A stretch of DNA of 32,198 bases from Deltaproteobacteria bacterium (GTDB taxonomy: Bacteria; Desulfobacterota; Desulfarculia; Adiutricales; Adiutricaceae): positions 1 through 32,198 of the forward strand of contig JAITKK010000018.1 of assembly GCA_031278475.1 (NCBI GenBank), written 5' to 3'. The stretch's first letter is position 1, and the number at the start of each line of letters is the position of its first letter. Positions 15,439 through 32,198 of the stretch are shown one piece after another. The notes beneath the pieces are model-generated. The model was not told where the DNA came from. It saw only the letters and a list, made by a program, of their open reading frames with translations, and did not search any database. The translations under genes were made by a program, and so were the position numbers.

Positions 15439-15706
15439 GTGGGCCAGGCCTGCCACTTAGGCGGGATCTTCTTGGCTGGGGCAGAGGAAAGGGGCGGCAT
15501 AGCGGCAAAGGACAGGGGCAGGGGACAAGGAAGCTTTCCCCGACACAGCATATATTGATAAAGGGAGGGCGGCCAACAGCCCATGGGTGGCCTAAAGTCA
15601 CTGAGGCCGCCATCCGATAAGACAAGTGGATGATTGGGTTTACGGGGAAGGGATCCGCCTATCCCCAACCCAAGACGAGCGCAGCCCGAAAGGCCAGGGG
15701 TTTTCC

Positions 15707-18700
15707 ATGTCAGGAACCAAGAAAGTGTCGCAGGTCGTGGTGAAGGTGCCCTGCCCGGATCGTTTGATAGAGGTCAGGGTCACCCCGCCGGACAGCCAGC
15801 TGGACGTGCGCATCCTCAACGAGGGCGACACCCTGGAGGTCAAGATCCTGCCCCGCGGCAAACACGTCGAGGTCAAGGTCAACCCCGTGGAGGACACAGA
15901 CGATCTGATAAAGGACAGGACCCGGCTTCCCGGTGAGGGTGAGCCCGCGGAAGGCCAGGATGAGGAACCCGGGCCAATAGAGGCGGTATCCGTCATACCG
16001 CCGGTAACCGGCAAGACATTTTTGGGTGTGGAGGTCCACGAGCTTCAGGTGGCGGATCTCAGCAAGCTGGACGCCTCCGACACCGCCTTCAGGGAAACCA
16101 CCGGCGAGGAACCCATCCAGCCATCCTTGGGATCCTACCAGCCAGAGGGCCAGGACAAGGATTCCGTGGCGCTCTACGAGAAGGATTCCTCCTTCCCGAT
16201 GTACCAGGCGCCTTTCGCGGACGAGGCCGACAGGGAACCCGTTCCCGCTTTCGGCGAGTTCCCGCCCCAAGGGCCCGGGGGCGAGGCCCTGGCCCCGGAC
16301 GGCGGCGAGCTGGGGGGCGACGACTACGAGGTGCTCCCGGCGCAGCCCTTGGAGGGCATCATTGGGGATGGCACGGACCTTGGCAGCATCGCGGCAGGCG
16401 AGGTGCTGGCCCTTGGCGGTAACAGCCTGGAGGAGGCCATTGACCATTTGGGTAAAGGGGTGTCCCCACAGCCGGAGCCTCAGCCCGAAGCCGTCGAGGA
16501 GCCCCCGCCCGATGCCGTAATCGTCGAAAGCCCCGATGCCGTTAGTGCCCCGGATGGCTCTGAGCCTGATTTGTCCGCCCCGGATGGCCCCGCGCCTGAT
16601 TTGTCCGCCCCGGATGGCCCCGCGCCTGATTTGTCCGCCCCGGATGACCCCGCGCCTGATTTGTCCGCCTCGGATGGCCCTGCGCCTGATTTGTCTTCCC
16701 CGGAGGGCCCTTCCCCGGAAGACGTGGGCATTGGACCTTCCGGGCAGATGTCCTTCGACGCGAAAACCATACAGGAGGCCAACGCCCTTCTGGAAAAGAT
16801 CGGGCAGCCGCCGGTTGACGCTTCCTTGATGACATTTTCCGAAGAGGATGCCCCTTCCGGGGATGACGTGGCGGCCGATTTCGAATCCGGCCCTTACGGG
16901 GAAGGCCAGGCTGCCCCGGGAGACCCGGACAGCTCAGCCGATGGGGTCCCATTGGGCGCGGGCGATCCTATGGCATTCGATGAGGAAACCATACGGGAGG
17001 CAAACGCCCTTCTGGAAAAGATTGGCCAGCCGCCGGTTGATGCCTCACTTGTTGGTGGCGTAACGGATGCCGCGGCCGGCGACACGCCAGAAGGCCAAGG
17101 TGCCGCCGAGGCGAAAGACGCGGCTGTTGCCGTTCCTGTGGAAAGCCTTGCAGGCGAGGGTGCGAACGGCGTCGGGCTTGGCGCGGGTTCCCCCATGGCG
17201 TTCGATGAGAAAACCATAGAGGAGGCCAACGCCCTTCTGGAGCAGTTGGGGGCGCCCCCGGTGGACGTCGCACAGGCCAACCTAAGTGCCTCCGGAGGGA
17301 CAGGGGACCCTGAGCCAGGAAAGGAGCTTCTTAAGGATACCCACGGCGACATGGCCGAGCTCGCGAACGTGAGCGAGAGCAACCCAAAGACAACAGACGG
17401 CGCCCCTGATACCCTAAAAGAGCTGGCGGAGAACGCCCAGGCCTTGGATGTGGGCGGCGAAGGGCCTCCAGCCTCTTCCACGCACCCAGTCGATCCCAAG
17501 GCCTTGGAGAACGCTAACAAGCTTCTGGAGGACATGGGCAAAGCCCCGTTGGATCCGTCTTCGCTTAAATCCGAAGAGGAGCTTGAGAGGATAATCGAGG
17601 AGAGCATCCCGGACAGCCAGTCGGACATCCAGGAACTAGCCGATGGCGAATCCTTCAACGGAGAAGCCACTGACGATGTAGTCGCCTTCAGGGACATGAT
17701 GGAAAAGGCCAAGGGGCTCGAGAAGGGCGTTAAGGTTGTTGAGATCCCGGAAAACCCGGAGCCTTCCGACATCCTCGGCCTTGACATGACGGGCCCGGGG
17801 GATCCCTGGTCAGGCAATGGGGATGACCCAGACCCTGTCGCATCCGCCATGGCAGGCCTGATAGCACAGGAAGAGCTAAACGCCCAAGAGGAGAAAGAGC
17901 CCAAAGAGGCAAAGAAGGAAGACCCGGAAGGGCAAAAAAAAAATCCTGACAAAGCCGGAAACGGGCAAGGGGACCCCTTAGACGAAGGGACGCCCCAGGA
18001 TCCAGGGCCCGATGGGCAACTGGAAGGCGAAGACGAGCTCGACAGCGTAACGGAATCGCTTACCGGGGACGATCTCAGAGACGAGTCCGGTCCCGACCAA
18101 GAACCCTCTTCGGATGGGACAGAGCCCCTCCCGGAAGACGATCCCGCCGCGGACGAAAGCCAGAAGGCAACGGACGCATCCGACTCAGCCGAAAGCCCGG
18201 ATAACACGGATAACCCAGGTAACCCAGAACCCACTGGCTCCGGCTGGTCACTTGAGTCCGGGCTTTTGGGCGCGGGTGCCCTGGCATTGGCAGGGTCCAT
18301 GGCAGCCCCGGAGCAAGCCTTGGCATCCCCTGCTATGGATGCGGTGTCCCAAGCCCAGCCTGACATCCCAGAAGATGCCGACCTTGGCTCGGAGGAGCCT
18401 GCCTTCCAGGTGGAAAGCGTCGCAGCCGATGCCAATCCCCCCGAGGCCGATGCCGATGCTGATTCCCCAATAGTTTCGGAAGACAGCCCCGAAACACTGG
18501 AAGCCCAAGCAGGGCTTGGGTCCCAAGCCGAACCAGAGGCCGAGCCAGAACCCGAGCATCCGGGTTTTGAGGTGGAAAGTGTAGCAATTGATGCTAATCC
18601 ACCAGAAGCTAAGGCCGAGGCTGAGGCCGAAGCCGAGGCCGATGCCCCGTTAGCTGCGGAAGACACACCCGAAACGCTGGATGCCCAAGCAGGGCTTGGG

Positions 18701-20155
18701 TCCCAAGCCGAGCCAGAACCCGAGCCCGAGCCCGAGCACACGGGTTTTGAGGTGGAAAGTGTCGCTGACACGGCCGATCCCTCAGTCCAAGATCCAAGCC
18801 TAGAACCTACCCAAGAATTTACCCAAGAACCTACCCAAGAAATTACCCAAGAACCCATCCTGGAACTTACCCAAGAACCTACCCAAGAAATTACCCAAGA
18901 GCCCATCCAAGTTCCAAGCCTAGACAAAGAGGAAGAGGGGATCCTGAGCCTGGAAAGCGAGTCCGCCCAAGTCGAGGCCCCGGAGGATGGATACGCTGCG
19001 GGGATCACCGATGCGGATAGCCTACTCGCCAAGAAAGCCGTAAGCGATGGCGACCCGCTCTTCGACGAGGCGCAGCTGCAGCCGGAGCCCTTGGACTTCA
19101 CGGCGGAAACCGAGGAAGTTGGAACGGATGATGGCTTGGATGGGGTTGTGGCCCAAGAGCATGCCCCGGAGGAGAGGTTCGCCCCGGAGATCCCGGAGGT
19201 GCAGAGCGTGACGGAGGAGGAGTCGCTTACCGAGGGCGATCCGCTCTTCGTGAACGCAACTCCCCTTTCAGAGCTGGAGGCATCCCTTGCGGGTTCTGTC
19301 CCCCAAGAGGGGGCGCAAGAGGCCCAGGAAGAACCCAGCATTGACGGAGAGATTGCCCAGTGGCCTGCGGAATCCGTTATTGATGCCGAGGAATCCCAGC
19401 CGGGCCAGGAATCGGCCGATCATGGGGAGGAGGCGCAGGATCCCTTGGTCGCGGCCGGTTCGGCAATCGACCCGGCGGATATCCAAGTGGATGGCTTGTC
19501 CCTGGAGGAGCCCCTCTTAGGCCAATCGGCCGAGAGCCCAGCAAGCTCCCCGGATGACTCGATAGTTGACGGCGAGCCGGTCCTGGAGGACTCAAGGGAA
19601 TTTTCAGAGCCTGAGGGGGTCTTGGATTATGCTGGCGAGGGTGCGGGCGGGGTACCCTTTGCCGGTGTCACCCTTGTGGGGCCCAATTCGGACTTCAGCC
19701 CGGATTCCTCAATCGCCAAGCTCCCGCCCGAGGCCTTGCCCCAGATTGGCGAGGGAACCCTTCTGGCGCAGGGGCTTGCGGCACCTGTGAGGGAAGGGGC
19801 CGCCGAGAGCGATTACCTGGAGGCCGATTCCGGTTACGTCGGGGCGGACGAGGGCTCCGTTGTGCCGGTCGCGAAGATCCCGGAGGAAAAGCCCCCATTC
19901 GAGAAGATGGGGGGGAATGCGGGTATTGAGACCCCCTACGCCCGCAACCGCCTCAGCGGGAGGCCCATGGCCGAGTCCTCGACAGCCGTTATAGTCAATT
20001 ACCTGGACGACAAGGACGAGGGGCTGGTGGTGGACCAGGGCCAGTACGGGGCCCTTGGGGCCGAGGAGGATCTGGACCTCGATCTCCTGGAGCTAGACAA
20101 CCCGCCAAGCTTCAAGGCCAAGCCCATGATCCCGGTGCCCAGGGAGCCAAGGTGA
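15707..20155 (+). CDS. Very large acidic repeat-rich protein of unknown function
   Basis: Single ~1480-codon ORF from likely start MSGTKKVSQVVVKVPCPDRLIEVRVTPPDSQLDVRILNEGDTLEVKILPRGKHVEVKVNP. Several internal repeat families; strongly Asp/Glu/Pro/Ala/Ser rich. Confidence 0.85.
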   Translation: MSGTKKVSQVVVKVPCPDRLIEVRVTPPDSQLDVRILNEGDTLEVKILPRGKHVEVKVNPVEDTDDLIKDRTRLPGEGEPAEGQDEEPGPIEAVSVIPPVTGKTFLGVEVHELQVADLSKLDASDTAFRETTGEEPIQPSLGSYQPEGQDKDSVALYEKDSSFPMYQAPFADEADREPVPAFGEFPPQGPGGEALAPDGGELGGDDYEVLPAQPLEGIIGDGTDLGSIAAGEVLALGGNSLEEAIDHLGKGVSPQPEPQPEAVEEPPPDAVIVESPDAVSAPDGSEPDLSAPDGPAPDLSAPDGPAPDLSAPDDPAPDLSASDGPAPDLSSPEGPSPEDVGIGPSGQMSFDAKTIQEANALLEKIGQPPVDASLMTFSEEDAPSGDDVAADFESGPYGEGQAAPGDPDSSADGVPLGAGDPMAFDEETIREANALLEKIGQPPVDASLVGGVTDAAAGDTPEGQGAAEAKDAAVAVPVESLAGEGANGVGLGAGSPMAFDEKTIEEANALLEQLGAPPVDVAQANLSASGGTGDPEPGKELLKDTHGDMAELANVSESNPKTTDGAPDTLKELAENAQALDVGGEGPPASSTHPVDPKALENANKLLEDMGKAPLDPSSLKSEEELERIIEESIPDSQSDIQELADGESFNGEATDDVVAFRDMMEKAKGLEKGVKVVEIPENPEPSDILGLDMTGPGDPWSGNGDDPDPVASAMAGLIAQEELNAQEEKEPKEAKKEDPEGQKKNPDKAGNGQGDPLDEGTPQDPGPDGQLEGEDELDSVTESLTGDDLRDESGPDQEPSSDGTEPLPEDDPAADESQKATDASDSAESPDNTDNPGNPEPTGSGWSLESGLLGAGALALAGSMAAPEQALASPAMDAVSQAQPDIPEDADLGSEEPAFQVESVAADANPPEADADADSPIVSEDSPETLEAQAGLGSQAEPEAEPEPEHPGFEVESVAIDANPPEAKAEAEAEAEADAPLAAEDTPETLDAQAGLGSQAEPEPEPEPEHTGFEVESVADTADPSVQDPSLEPTQEFTQEPTQEITQEPILELTQEPTQEITQEPIQVPSLDKEEEGILSLESESAQVEAPEDGYAAGITDADSLLAKKAVSDGDPLFDEAQLQPEPLDFTAETEEVGTDDGLDGVVAQEHAPEERFAPEIPEVQSVTEEESLTEGDPLFVNATPLSELEASLAGSVPQEGAQEAQEEPSIDGEIAQWPAESVIDAEESQPGQESADHGEEAQDPLVAAGSAIDPADIQVDGLSLEEPLLGQSAESPASSPDDSIVDGEPVLEDSREFSEPEGVLDYAGEGAGGVPFAGVTLVGPNSDFSPDSSIAKLPPEALPQIGEGTLLAQGLAAPVREGAAESDYLEADSGYVGADEGSVVPVAKIPEEKPPFEKMGGNAGIETPYARNRLSGRPMAESSTAVIVNYLDDKDEGLVVDQGQYGALGAEEDLDLDLLELDNPPSFKAKPMIPVPREPR
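16551..16700 (+). repeat. 30-nt in-frame tandem repeat, 5 copies
   Basis: cggatggccccgcgcctgatttgtccgccc-type units encoding (S)APDGPAPDLS. Confidence 0.92.
16748..17560 (+). repeat. Four dispersed protein modules 'M-x-FD-x-x-TI-x-EANALLE-x-[IL]-G-x-PPVD'
   Basis: MSFDAKTIQEANALLEKIGQPPVDASL (16748), MAFDEETIREANALLEKIGQPPVDASL (16970), MAFDEKTIEEANALLEQLGAPPVDVAQ (17195), VDPKALENANKLLEDMGKAPLDPSSL (~17489). Confidence 0.9.
18404..18770 (+). repeat. Three ~54-60 aa repeats (F[QE]VESVA...)
   Basis: FQVESVAADANPPEA...PETLEAQAGLGSQAEPE / FEVESVAIDANPPEA...PETLDAQAGLGSQAEPE / FEVESVADTADPS. Confidence 0.9.
18800..18915 (+). repeat. Short tandem repeat encoding (E/P)xTQEPTQEITQEPI
   Basis: Repeated 12-nt-type units containing 'acccaaga'. 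Confidence 0.88.
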
Positions 20156-24228: not shown

Positions 24229-25809
24229 ATGCCCATAAGCAACTTTATTAACATCGGCGGGCTCAGCATAAAGGGCAAGAGCCTGTACAGCACTTCAAGC
24301 GTAGGCGTTAAGAGTGCCATCGGCAACTCCGTGCTCAAGATCGCGAACGGCTACATAGGGACCAAGGTCTCGGCCACCGCGACCCAAGAGGCCAAGACCA
24401 ACTACCTCTCCCTAAGCTTCAGGGACAGCCTCCTCAGGAACCTGAACGTGGCCAACCAGCTAATAGCGGACAATAAGAAGAAGAGCGAGGAACAGAAGGA
24501 GAAGTTGGTCGACTCCGTGGTGGCCGCGGCCGAGGAGATCCGCAAATCCTTCGGCTATGCCGAGGCCAACCGCTTCATGGCCATGGTGCTCACCACCACC
24601 GAGTCGGATGTCACCGAGGCAAGGCTTGCTAGCGCCATGACGGAGTTCCTCACTGTTGTGAAGGACAAGGCCCTAAGTACCCTCGCGAGCGCAGGGGTCA
24701 CGGAAGAGGTGTCCGCAGAGGCCGACAAGACTCTGGGAAAGCTTCAGGATTTCGTGGTCTACCTGAACAACGGCTCCGAGGATAGCAAGACTGGGCTTAG
24801 CGTGGCCTCCGCCATGAACGAGTACTTCGGGCGCGGCCAGGCTGCCGACGAGGACAAGAGGATCTTCACGGACGGCCTTGAGTGGCTCTCAGCCAATGAG
24901 GTTGCGGCGGCGGAGGCGGCTTCCAACGCCAGTTTCGTCATCACCAAAGCCGAGCTGGCTACCGAGGCCTTGGAGGAAACCGTCACCTTCCTCACAGAGC
25001 AGGTGGCAAGCGAGAAGGCCGCCGCCGTCATCGTCTCACTCAAGGAAGATGAAGACATCTTCGATGCGGTTGACGAAGTGCGCACGATCTTGGCCGAAGA
25101 GGACGATGAGGAGGCCAAGGAGGCAGGGACAAACGCCCAGACAGACGCCTCTACTGCCGTTGCGGCGTCAGCCACCGAGGCCCTTTCCGCCACCAATGCC
25201 GCCGCGGCCGCGGCAGCGGCCGCGGCCGTCGCGGTATCCTCAGGCGCGGCCGACGACGGCAAGATTGCCGAAAGCGACGCCGGGGCTACCATTAGCGGGT
25301 CCAACGCGGCCAAGGTGCTGGACGCGGCTGTCAAGGCAGCCACCAAGAGCGCCCTGTTCGACATGTTTCTTGAGAATTACTTCCTGGCCGAGATAAACAA
25401 GACCATCCAGAACGACAAAAACGTGGGCGGGAGGCTCACGACCGTGGTGTCCAGCAAGATCGGGGTGGGCTTCGAGATAGGGAGCGTGGGCATCTCCACC
25501 TGGCCGGGGCTGTTTGCCTCGAGAGGGACCGGTCTCTCAGTCTCCGTGGGCTTCGAGAGGGAGTTCTCCATATCCGTGGGGAAAGATAACAAGGTAGAGA
25601 CCAAATTCACCCAGAGCGTCAAGATAGAGGCCACCTTCCGCAGCGCACCCACCTACGGGATTGGCAGCGGCGGGGCCTTGGTCGCGGCCGGGCTTCTCAC
25701 CCTCGCAAACTCCCTCGAGACCCGCTACCTCGCGGGCAGAATAGCTACCAACAACACTACCACCCCGTCGGCCATCAGGAGCTCGTATCTGCTCTCAAGC
25801 CTGGTATAG
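24229..25809 (+). CDS. Orphan Ala/Ser/Thr-rich protein of unknown function (526 aa)
   Basis: Complete ORF; aggagg SD 6-7 nt before ATG; long predicted helical Ala/Glu-rich centre; Gly/Ser beta-like C-terminus; own terminator downstream. Confidence 0.85.
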   Translation: MPISNFINIGGLSIKGKSLYSTSSVGVKSAIGNSVLKIANGYIGTKVSATATQEAKTNYLSLSFRDSLLRNLNVANQLIADNKKKSEEQKEKLVDSVVAAAEEIRKSFGYAEANRFMAMVLTTTESDVTEARLASAMTEFLTVVKDKALSTLASAGVTEEVSAEADKTLGKLQDFVVYLNNGSEDSKTGLSVASAMNEYFGRGQAADEDKRIFTDGLEWLSANEVAAAEAASNASFVITKAELATEALEETVTFLTEQVASEKAAAVIVSLKEDEDIFDAVDEVRTILAEEDDEEAKEAGTNAQTDASTAVAASATEALSATNAAAAAAAAAAVAVSSGAADDGKIAESDAGATISGSNAAKVLDAAVKAATKSALFDMFLENYFLAEINKTIQNDKNVGGRLTTVVSSKIGVGFEIGSVGISTWPGLFASRGTGLSVSVGFEREFSISVGKDNKVETKFTQSVKIEATFRSAPTYGIGSGGALVAAGLLTLANSLETRYLAGRIATNNTTTPSAIRSSYLLSSLV

Positions 25810-29679: not shown

Positions 29680-30070
29680 ATGACAGACCTACCGGTCGAT
29701 CCCCAAGAATGCCATCCATAGGAATGCCTTCCAAAGGAATGCCTTCCTCTGTATCCATCGGGAGGGTAGGTCCCAAACCCAGGTGCCAAGCGCCACCAAG
29801 CCAGCTTGGCCGGACACAACTCCCCAGCCACACGCCAAGGGAGTGTTTCGGCCAGCGATAAGGCAATGCGCCCTGATTACCCCAAATCGGGGCTGCCAAG
29901 CGGCTTCAAAGGTGCTTTTCCCGCAATTCAAGGGGAAGTTCCCCAGCTTTTTCAAATAAGCCATTGTCCCCTATAATCCTTCAGGCCAAGCTCTGGCCTG
30001 GGGAGAAAGAGCAATGCAAATCCTCGACCCGTCATTAGGGAAGGGCGGTCGGCAGAAAGAAAGGAACACT

Positions 30071-31198
30071 ATGACAAACGACGATCTCACCAAGAAAGCA
30101 GCACTTTCCGAGGAGTCCACCCTTTGGGGCCTGGACTCTGATTTGGAGGAAATGCCTCCCCTTGACTTGGTCGACGACGATGACGACGACGATGAAGACG
30201 ATGACGACTCTCCTGATCTCTACATCTTCACCCAGGAAGAAGAGGAAGATGAGGAGGATGACGAGGACGATGACGACGACTTCGACGATGACGACGATGA
30301 CGACGAGGACGAAGATGACGAGGAAGAAAAGCCCGCCCGCGTGACCAAGCCCCCGAAGCCCCCGGCAAAGCGTCCCGTCAAGCCGGCCGTCCGCAAGAAG
30401 CCCGGCCCCAAGCCCAAGGCAAAGCCTGCGGCAAGGAAGCCCGCGGCCAAGAAGCCCGGTCCCAAGCCAAAGCCAAAGCCAAAGCCGACGACAAGGAAGC
30501 CCGCGGCCAAGAAGCCCGGTCCCAAGCCCAAGGGGACTGTCAAGGCGACCGTGAGGAAGAAGCCCGGTCCCAAGCCCAAGGGCACTGTCAAGGCGACCGT
30601 GAGGAAGAAGCCCGGTCCCAAGCCGAAGGCCGCTGTCAAGGCGACCGTGAGGAAGAAGCCCGGCCCGAAGCCGAAGGCCGCTTCCGCCCGCAAGCCGGCC
30701 GTCCGCAAGACCGCAACGCGCAAGACCGCAGTCCGCAAGACCACAGCGCGCAAGACGGCAGTCCGCAAGGCGACCCCGGGCCGCAAGCCCGCCGTTCGCA
30801 AGACCGCGGTGCGCAAGCCGGCAGTCCGCAAGGCGACCCCGGGCCGCAAGCCCGCAGTCCGCAAGGCAACCCCGGGCCGCAAGCCCGCAGTCCGCAAGAC
30901 GGCAGTGCGCAAGCCGGCAGGCCGCAAGGCGACCCCGGGCCGCAAGCCCGCCGTCCGCAAGGCCCCAGGCAGGAAGCCAGCCGCCCACGCAAAGAGGGTG
31001 ATGGGCGCCCGCAAGACCGGGACACGCAAGGCCCCCGGCCGCAAGCCGGCAGCCGCGCACGCCCACAAGCCAGCAGGGCGCGCACCGGCCGGCCGCAAGC
31101 CGGGCCGCAAGCCCGCAGTCCGCAAGGCAACCCCGGGCCGCAAGCCCGCCGCACATGCCAAGCCAAGGGCCGGCGCGGCTAAAAAAAAACTAAGCTAA
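30071..31198 (+). CDS. Histone H1-like nucleoid protein with acidic Asp/Glu block and Lys/Arg/Pro repeats
   Basis: MTNDDLTKKAALSEESTLWGL...DDDDDDDEDDDD...DDDDDFDDDDDDDEDEDDEEE, then KKPGPKPK, TVKATVRKKPGPKPKG and ATPGRKPAVRKTAVRKPAVRK repeats. ATG 30071. Confidence 0.85.
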   Translation: MTNDDLTKKAALSEESTLWGLDSDLEEMPPLDLVDDDDDDDEDDDDSPDLYIFTQEEEEDEEDDEDDDDDFDDDDDDDEDEDDEEEKPARVTKPPKPPAKRPVKPAVRKKPGPKPKAKPAARKPAAKKPGPKPKPKPKPTTRKPAAKKPGPKPKGTVKATVRKKPGPKPKGTVKATVRKKPGPKPKAAVKATVRKKPGPKPKAASARKPAVRKTATRKTAVRKTTARKTAVRKATPGRKPAVRKTAVRKPAVRKATPGRKPAVRKATPGRKPAVRKTAVRKPAGRKATPGRKPAVRKAPGRKPAAHAKRVMGARKTGTRKAPGRKPAAAHAHKPAGRAPAGRKPGRKPAVRKATPGRKPAAHAKPRAGAAKKKLS

Positions 31199-31479
31199 GT
31201 TCACCTGGCAGGGCGGGGAGAATCCCCACCAAGGGGTCGATTGCGAAAAAGCTCTTCAAGGATCTGAGCGAAGGCCAGCTTAGCGGCAAGGGCCTTAAGA
31301 CCCTGAGGGGAGCGTTGGCCATATCGGCCTCCACAATGTCCAAGGCCTTGGGGATCAGGGCTTCAACCCTCTACCGCTGGGAGAACTACCCTCCCAGCGC
31401 ATACACCGAGGAGACGAGGATACTGATCTCGGACTTCGTCCACAACTGCGTGGACCACGGGTACTTGGAGGTCAAGTGA
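31183..31479 (+). CDS. Start-less C-terminal helix-turn-helix domain in the -1 frame of the histone-like gene
   Basis: KTKLSSPGRAGRIPTKGSIAKKLFKDLSEGQLSGKGLKTLRGALAISASTMSKALGIRASTLYRWENYPPSAYTEETRILISDFVHNCVDHGYLEVK*; XRE/Cro-like HTH by eye; no ATG/GTG upstream in frame; frame opens exactly in the A9 run. Confidence 0.7.
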   Translation, partial: KKTKLSSPGRAGRIPTKGSIAKKLFKDLSEGQLSGKGLKTLRGALAISASTMSKALGIRASTLYRWENYPPSAYTEETRILISDFVHNCVDHGYLEVK

Positions 31480-31523: not shown

Positions 31524-31617
31524 TCCTGTCCTGTCCTGTCCTGTCCTGTCCTGTCCTGTCTCCTGTCCTGTTATGTCTCCTGTCCTGTCCTGTCCTGTCC
31601 TGTCATGTCATGTCATA
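31524..31617. repeat. Pentanucleotide microsatellite (TCCTG)n, with TCATG variants
   Basis: Seven perfect TCCTG units, then 2, then 5, interrupted by tc and ttatg, ending tcatgtcatgtcata. Confidence 0.97.
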
Positions 31618-31665: not shown

Positions 31666-31705
31666 ACTCCTCCGCATCCAATATCACCTAATTAAGTAGC
31701 TCTTT

Positions 31706-31764
31706 GGCATCCAACATCCCCCAATAAAGCCGCTTCTGGGCATCCAATATCCCCCAATAAAGCC
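31706..31764. repeat. 33-nt-period direct repeat, 2 copies
   Basis: ggcatccaacatcccccaataaagcc (31706) and ggcatccaatatcccccaataaagcc (31739). Confidence 0.85.
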
Positions 31765-32009: not shown

Positions 32010-32198
32010 TCAGAGGAGGTATTCCCTTGGGTCCTTTTCCTTCTTTCTCGCCTCGTCGGTCAGGTTGTAGGGGCCCACGACGGTACCGAACTTCTTGGCG
32101 AGGCTGACCAGCTCCTTTACGGAGGGGTCGAAGGCGTCAGGGGAGTTCAGGCTCAGGCAAACGGAGTTTGCGCAGCGCACGCCGTTGAAGATCAGGGG
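32010..32198 (-). CDS. C-terminal fragment of an unidentified protein, truncated by contig end
   Basis: Minus reading LIFNGVRCANSVCLSLNSPDAFDPSVKELVSLAKKFGTVVGPYNLTDEARKKEKDPREYLL*; open to the window edge. Confidence 0.6.
   Translation of the reverse strand, partial: PLIFNGVRCANSVCLSLNSPDAFDPSVKELVSLAKKFGTVVGPYNLTDEARKKEKDPREYLL

Follow-up and report, generated by a model that had tools for sequence, protein, structure and literature searches.

Genes decoded by slippage on a homopolymeric run are already known in bacteria, and several of them resemble the locus considered here. In tssM1 of Citrobacter rodentium, which encodes a secretion-system membrane protein, an A11 run lies close before the stop codon and a C-terminal domain is encoded in another frame; transcriptional frameshifting, with transcripts carrying 10-15 A's, gives two length variants with no ribosomal signals nearby, the slippage having been demonstrated by mass spectrometry of the mRNA and both forms being needed (PMC4256274). 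A sense-strand A9 run in dnaX of Thermus thermophilus likewise leads from one gene to two products, of which the long one is standard and the shorter one arises by slippage (PMC1088944, PMC5009743), and slippage on A9 is efficient in bacteria (PMC5009743). In mxiE of Shigella flexneri, which encodes a transcription activator in two overlapping ORFs, slippage on a run of U links the two and adds the second part of this DNA-binding regulator (PMC1088944). Hc2 of Chlamydia and AlgP of Pseudomonas are H1-like proteins with a basic, repeat-rich tail rich in Lys, Ala and Pro (PMC9239181).

The H1-like gene described here lies in a window of 32,198 nucleotides (the whole stretch of DNA that was analysed) from an uncultured deltaproteobacterium and combines features of these systems. 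Its layout is that of tssM1, with an A-run close before the stop codon, a C-terminal domain in another frame, two putative length variants and no ribosomal signals nearby, although the product is histone-like rather than a membrane protein and the case for slippage is built on sequence comparison. The A9 run is shared with dnaX, but slippage would here be needed for the long product instead of shortening it. As in mxiE, slippage would add part of a DNA-binding protein, whereas the run consists of A and the first part of the gene already encodes a complete protein. The tail resembles those of Hc2 and AlgP, from which the protein differs in its acidic N-terminus and, via the proposed slippage, in a C-terminal helix-turn-helix (HTH). 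The latter is similar in predicted fold and profile to HTHs of the XRE or Cro/C1 type (HipB, HigA2, P22 c2), but unlike these it is a C-terminal appendage of an H1-like protein and has strong matches in this bacterial family only.

It is probable, from the comparisons reported below, that conserved slippage, most plausibly transcriptional, yields both the H1-like protein alone and an H1-HTH fusion. Cellular slippage-decoded genes with comparative support are, to our knowledge, few. A literature search found neither this gene family nor any H1-like gene decoded by slippage, nor a case in which an H1-like protein is made both with an HTH and without one; the GeneTack survey makes no mention of histones in its main text.

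Organisation of the H1-like gene

The gene and its presumed upstream signal comprise the following features.

29949..29977, forward strand: tentative sigma-70-like promoter (TTTTCA, 17 nt, TATAAT), 5' of the H1-like gene
30071..31198, forward strand: H1-like ORF of 375 aa in the 0 frame, ATG at 30071, stop at 31196-31198
30071..30355, forward strand: acidic N-terminal part of the H1-like ORF, 52 D/E in 95 residues
30356..31180, forward strand: basic K/R/P/A-rich repeats of the H1-like ORF

The ATG is preceded by an SD-like gaaagga, and the H1-like gene of the congener of the source genome (G000), referred to as G001, has an identical start (MTNDDL) and a similar SD. The product has an acidic N-terminus, a basic repeat-rich tail with 103 K/R and no D/E beyond residue 95, and the terminus AAKKKLS (stop). 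It matches the Pfam model HC2 at 42.2 bits, above the curated cut-off of 40, which is weak evidence of descent because the sequence is of low complexity; the NCBIfam models for Hc2 and for Burkholderia H1-like proteins score it far under their cut-offs. The tentative promoter agrees with the consensus at 10 of 12 positions, one such site having been found in a consensus scan as against 0.2 in shuffles. Rfam and tRNA scans of the whole window gave no matches. Elsewhere in the window, an alanine-rich ORF of 526 aa without a Pfam match occupies positions 24229-25806.

The A9 run and the change of frame

The transition between the two frames involves three further features.

31181..31189, forward strand: A9 run, read as codons AAA AAA AAA, candidate slippage site
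31190..31198, forward strand: 0-frame tail cta agc taa, so that the short isoform would end two codons past the run
31183..31479, forward strand: open stretch in the -1 frame, 98 codons (31183-31476) and tga at 31477-31479

The sequence across the run is gct aaa aaa aaa cta agc taa, and in the -1 frame a taa stop (31180-31182) directly precedes the open stretch. The earlier note had placed an A9 run and a 0-frame end of AKKKLS (stop) at these coordinates and had described a -1 frame stop followed by about 98 open codons up to the tga; the sequence bears out both statements.

Outside the run, the lysine codons of the H1-like gene are AAG in 67 cases and AAA in one (n=68). When synonymous codons were reshuffled according to the gene's own codon usage, none of 20,000 reshuffles reached a run of at least nine A's in G000, and 2.7% and 0.3% did so for the corresponding genes of two relatives described below (G008 and G015, respectively). 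Codon use is therefore no explanation for the run. The 3.18 Mb source genome contains 60 A9 windows, both strands counted. Of 44 A/T runs at least nine long that were inspected in this genome, several lie within long ORFs, and under a strict coding criterion no other run among the 44 had a sense-strand coding frame opening only at the run; this background check is only indicative because the criterion is strict enough to miss even the upstream H1-like part here. The window contains a second slippage-prone site, an A10 run at 17934-17943 (CAA AAA AAA AAT) in the middle of a low-complexity, in-frame ORF of 1509 codons (15626-20155), where the frame is unchanged.

The HTH domain behind the run

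31234..31473, forward strand: XRE-type HTH domain (residues 18-97 when counted from 31183), assigned by AlphaFold2, Foldseek and the family profile

The HTH in the -1 frame is real coding DNA and is predicted to be an XRE-type domain. Its frame is free of stops, with GC contents of 0.46/0.48/0.80 by codon position, and both other frames contain stops; the third-position value is 0.80 in G000 and 0.77 in G015, and weaker (0.50) in G008. AlphaFold2 gave a pLDDT of 76 for the window sequence alone and of 82.6 when two relatives were added, the ordered domain comprising residues 18-97. A Foldseek search of the PDB with the single-sequence model returned top hits that are mostly XRE-type, with high probabilities and no E-value below 0.001; the predicted fold resembles HipB, HigA2 and P22 c2, and the HTH family profile matches the P22 c2 repressor (E 6.5e-4). 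The Pfam model HTH_3 scored 18.4 bits on the window HTH, under its cut-off of 23. The frame contains the peptides ASTLYR and WENYPPSAYTEETR, and the conserved R, T and RWE positions are retained in the HTHs of all three genomes in which the domain is split from the H1-like frame. A convincing HTH in this frame, as claimed before, is thus upheld by the codon-position bias, the structural model and the predicted XRE-type fold.

The HTH might instead be translated on its own, through internal or coupled initiation, and candidate starts in the HTH frame exist in all three split genomes: TTG 31315 (residue 45, with an SD-like AGGGGAG) and ATG 31336 (residue 52) in G000, TTG 358 in G015 and ATG 1522 in G008. 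Their positions are not conserved, however, and the relatives are in-frame fusions. The first start in G000 lies past the first strand and two helices of the domain, and separate initiation is highly improbable there since every ATG, GTG and TTG of the HTH frame is inside the domain. To the earlier statement that no ATG or GTG lies before the centre of the HTH and that no separate SD was seen, the TTG at 31315 with its SD-like motif and the ATG at 31336 are additions; ahead of the HTH core, G000 has no standard start codon. Soon 3' of the HTH stop, at 31524-31614, there is a pentanucleotide array of about 17 copies of TCCTG.

Fused, split and HTH-less homologues

Relatives were surveyed in a family of 37 genomes from 11 genera, which might be the Adiutricaceae from termite guts and other guts, and strong matches to the HTH profile were found in 14 of the genomes. 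In 11 of the 14, belonging to genera g6 and g10, a basic N-terminal part of varying length is joined in frame to the HTH, and no A-run of at least eight occurs in the 450 nt upstream of the HTH. Since these 11 relatives carry both parts in frame, the H1-like and HTH parts belong together. The other three are out-of-frame splits, all at long A-runs: A9 in G000, A11 in G008 (1325-1335, L066/L002) and A10 in G015 (299-308, L065), with the H1-like frame stopping 2, 5 or 9 codons past the AAA codons. G008 and G015 are deltaproteobacterial MAGs of genus g8 from a single sample (Pcl387), their HTHs being only 36% identical, and G000 represents another genus. The A10 and A11 runs appear unchanged in the public records JAITKT010000158.1 and JAITII010000033.1.

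In G001, the sole congener in the comparison (85% complete), the H1-like gene ends gcgaagaagaagaccaggtag, with AAG-AAG-AAG in place of AAA-AAA-AAA and no HTH behind it, and G004 has neither run nor HTH, nor have those g7 genomes in which the end of the H1-like gene can be read. As these HTH-less genes are also run-less, long A-runs accompany the split HTH. The run and the split arrangement are conserved in three genomes of two genera, with varying run length and sign of the shift, and in none of the relatives compared did the locus prove to hold a stand-alone HTH gene with a normal start. The earlier proposal that slippage at the A9 run joins the H1-like protein to the HTH and gives two isoforms is supported by this comparison, the 11 in-frame fusions and the A10 and A11 splits of a second genus both favouring such a link.

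Outside the family, searches of the order, of the class and of 396 genomes from the phylum yielded no further strong HTH match, and a search of genome contigs with the window HTH as sole query gave no match. The three split HTHs retrieved, besides G008 and G015, a protein of Archangium with an XRE-like domain, which was rejected as unrelated.

An error of assembly or consensus in the run length, the true gene being an in-frame fusion, might be suspected in a fragmented draft genome of 249 contigs, homopolymers being the usual places of such errors. An error of the same kind at the same place would, however, be needed in three genomes, and the contigs of G008 and G015 bear k119_ names, which point to short-read assembly. 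Run-length errors at A9-A11 are rare in short-read assemblies, and the probability of this explanation is negligible.

The main rival to slippage is phase variation at the DNA level, in which replication alters the run length, each cell line has either the short protein or the in-frame fusion, and the assemblies happen to show the off state; it would look alike in three consensus genomes. The run lengths do differ between genomes (A9, A10, A11), and with all frames equally likely, finding all three copies out of frame would have a probability of about 0.3, so that phase variation stays compatible with the data. None of the 14 strong HTH matches, on the other hand, is an in-frame copy with a long run, and runs of at least nine A's are expected to slip in transcription anyway (PMC5009743), so that both products would be made whatever the state of the DNA. 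Phase variation is accordingly regarded as rather unlikely.

The direction of the frame change bears on the level at which slippage would act. The HTH is reached by a gain of one A (or a loss of two) in G000 but by a loss of one (or a gain of two) in G008 and G015, the change in genus g8 being opposite to that of the window. Ribosomal slippage, by a shift or slide on AAA AAA AAA, would give the fusion in G000, where the slippery heptamer a aaa aaa (31183-31189) is in phase and a -1 shift on it leads to the HTH; ribosomes slide on A-runs, three AAA codons being enough, and do so robustly at A11 in an E. coli cell-free system (PMC4363877). A -1 shift fails to reach the HTH in G008 and G015, however, where +1 or -2 would be required, and no stimulatory RNA structure was found downstream of the three runs (z 0.09, 0.76 and 0.59 against shuffles). 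The weak hairpin noted earlier at 31215-31227 does exist, but its region folds no better than shuffles (the first of these values) and it is irrelevant to the frame change. That the two genera need shifts of opposite sign is more easily reconciled with slippage of the polymerase than with -1 ribosomal frameshifting: the former would serve all three split genomes, the latter G000 only. Ribosomal slippage thus appears quite unlikely.

Proposed decoding of the gene

The observations are that the gene has an A-run, that an HTH is encoded out of frame behind it, that this HTH is homologous to those of in-frame fusions and that the arrangement occurs in two genera; from these we infer that slippage occurs, that it takes place in transcription rather than on the ribosome, and which roles the isoforms may have. 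In the preferred reading a single gene would be decoded in two ways, RNA polymerase slipping on the nine A's to produce transcripts that differ in A count. Where the A count matches the template or differs from it by three, the product would be the short H1-like protein, which stops two residues past the run; with one A added or two removed, translation would enter the HTH frame, and the resulting long isoform would have an XRE-type domain at its C-terminus. The short form, with its acidic N-terminus and basic DNA-binding tail, resembles DNA-coating H1-like proteins in composition and might coat DNA, and the long form, to which a putative sequence-reading domain would be added as in the in-frame relatives, might tether an otherwise non-specific nucleoid protein to specific sites on the DNA or act in gene regulation. 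We propose that slippage sets the ratio of the short to the long form. Several points speak against slippage: only three genomes are split, two of these come from one sample, the HTH tree is uncertain because of its long branches, several HTH-less relatives indicate that the domain is open to loss, and the frame change needed differs between G000 and G008/G015, so that the exact frame is not conserved.

If the proposal is true, one gene makes DNA-coating and site-directed histone-like forms at a set ratio. The family contains natural controls, in the form of in-frame fusions, splits at A-runs and genes with neither HTH nor run, and the slippage idea is therefore directly testable. Gene callers would overlook the HTH in split genomes or label the gene as frameshifted.

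Synteny and evolutionary history

32013..32198, reverse strand: 3' end of a spermidine-synthase-like gene, convergent with the H1-like gene, synteny anchor; continues on contig C186

The convergent arrangement of the H1-like and spermidine-synthase-like genes is found in G000, G001, G008, G015, five g6 genomes and G016; the G001 orthologue of the neighbouring gene is barely over the cut-off of the Pfam model Spermine_synth. In a tree of the neighbouring gene, genera g1, g8, g4 and g7 are grouped (92/94), the order inside the group not being fixed, and the genera with a split HTH fall within one part of the tree. The three split sequences form one side of a branch of the HTH tree (95/97, 96% of bootstraps), which is uncertain owing to its long branches. 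Differences between the split HTHs by codon position are saturated. On the simplest reading of these patterns, the split state would have arisen once, and HTH and run would have been lost on later occasions.

The HTH-less relatives (G001, G004, g7) show that the domain can be lost and hence is dispensable, which would suit an inactivating frameshift, an indel in the run having cut off the HTH as a now decaying remnant. In all three split genomes the HTH is nevertheless open, biased at third codon positions and intact at the conserved R, T and RWE positions, and the split must date back at least to the divergence of G008 and G015, unless it arose repeatedly. A decaying remnant is thus very unlikely. 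A fuller version of the slippage reading, which we hold only tentatively, would have a conserved transcriptional-slippage site that sets the ratio of bulk to site-directed (HTH-bearing) H1-like protein, that replaced the in-frame fusion in one lineage and that disappeared along with the HTH from several relatives.

Between the HTH and the spermidine-synthase-like gene, a 33-base repeat occurs three times at 31667-31764. The end of the window contig (32080-32198) overlaps the start of C186 by 119 bases, within the spermidine-synthase-like gene.
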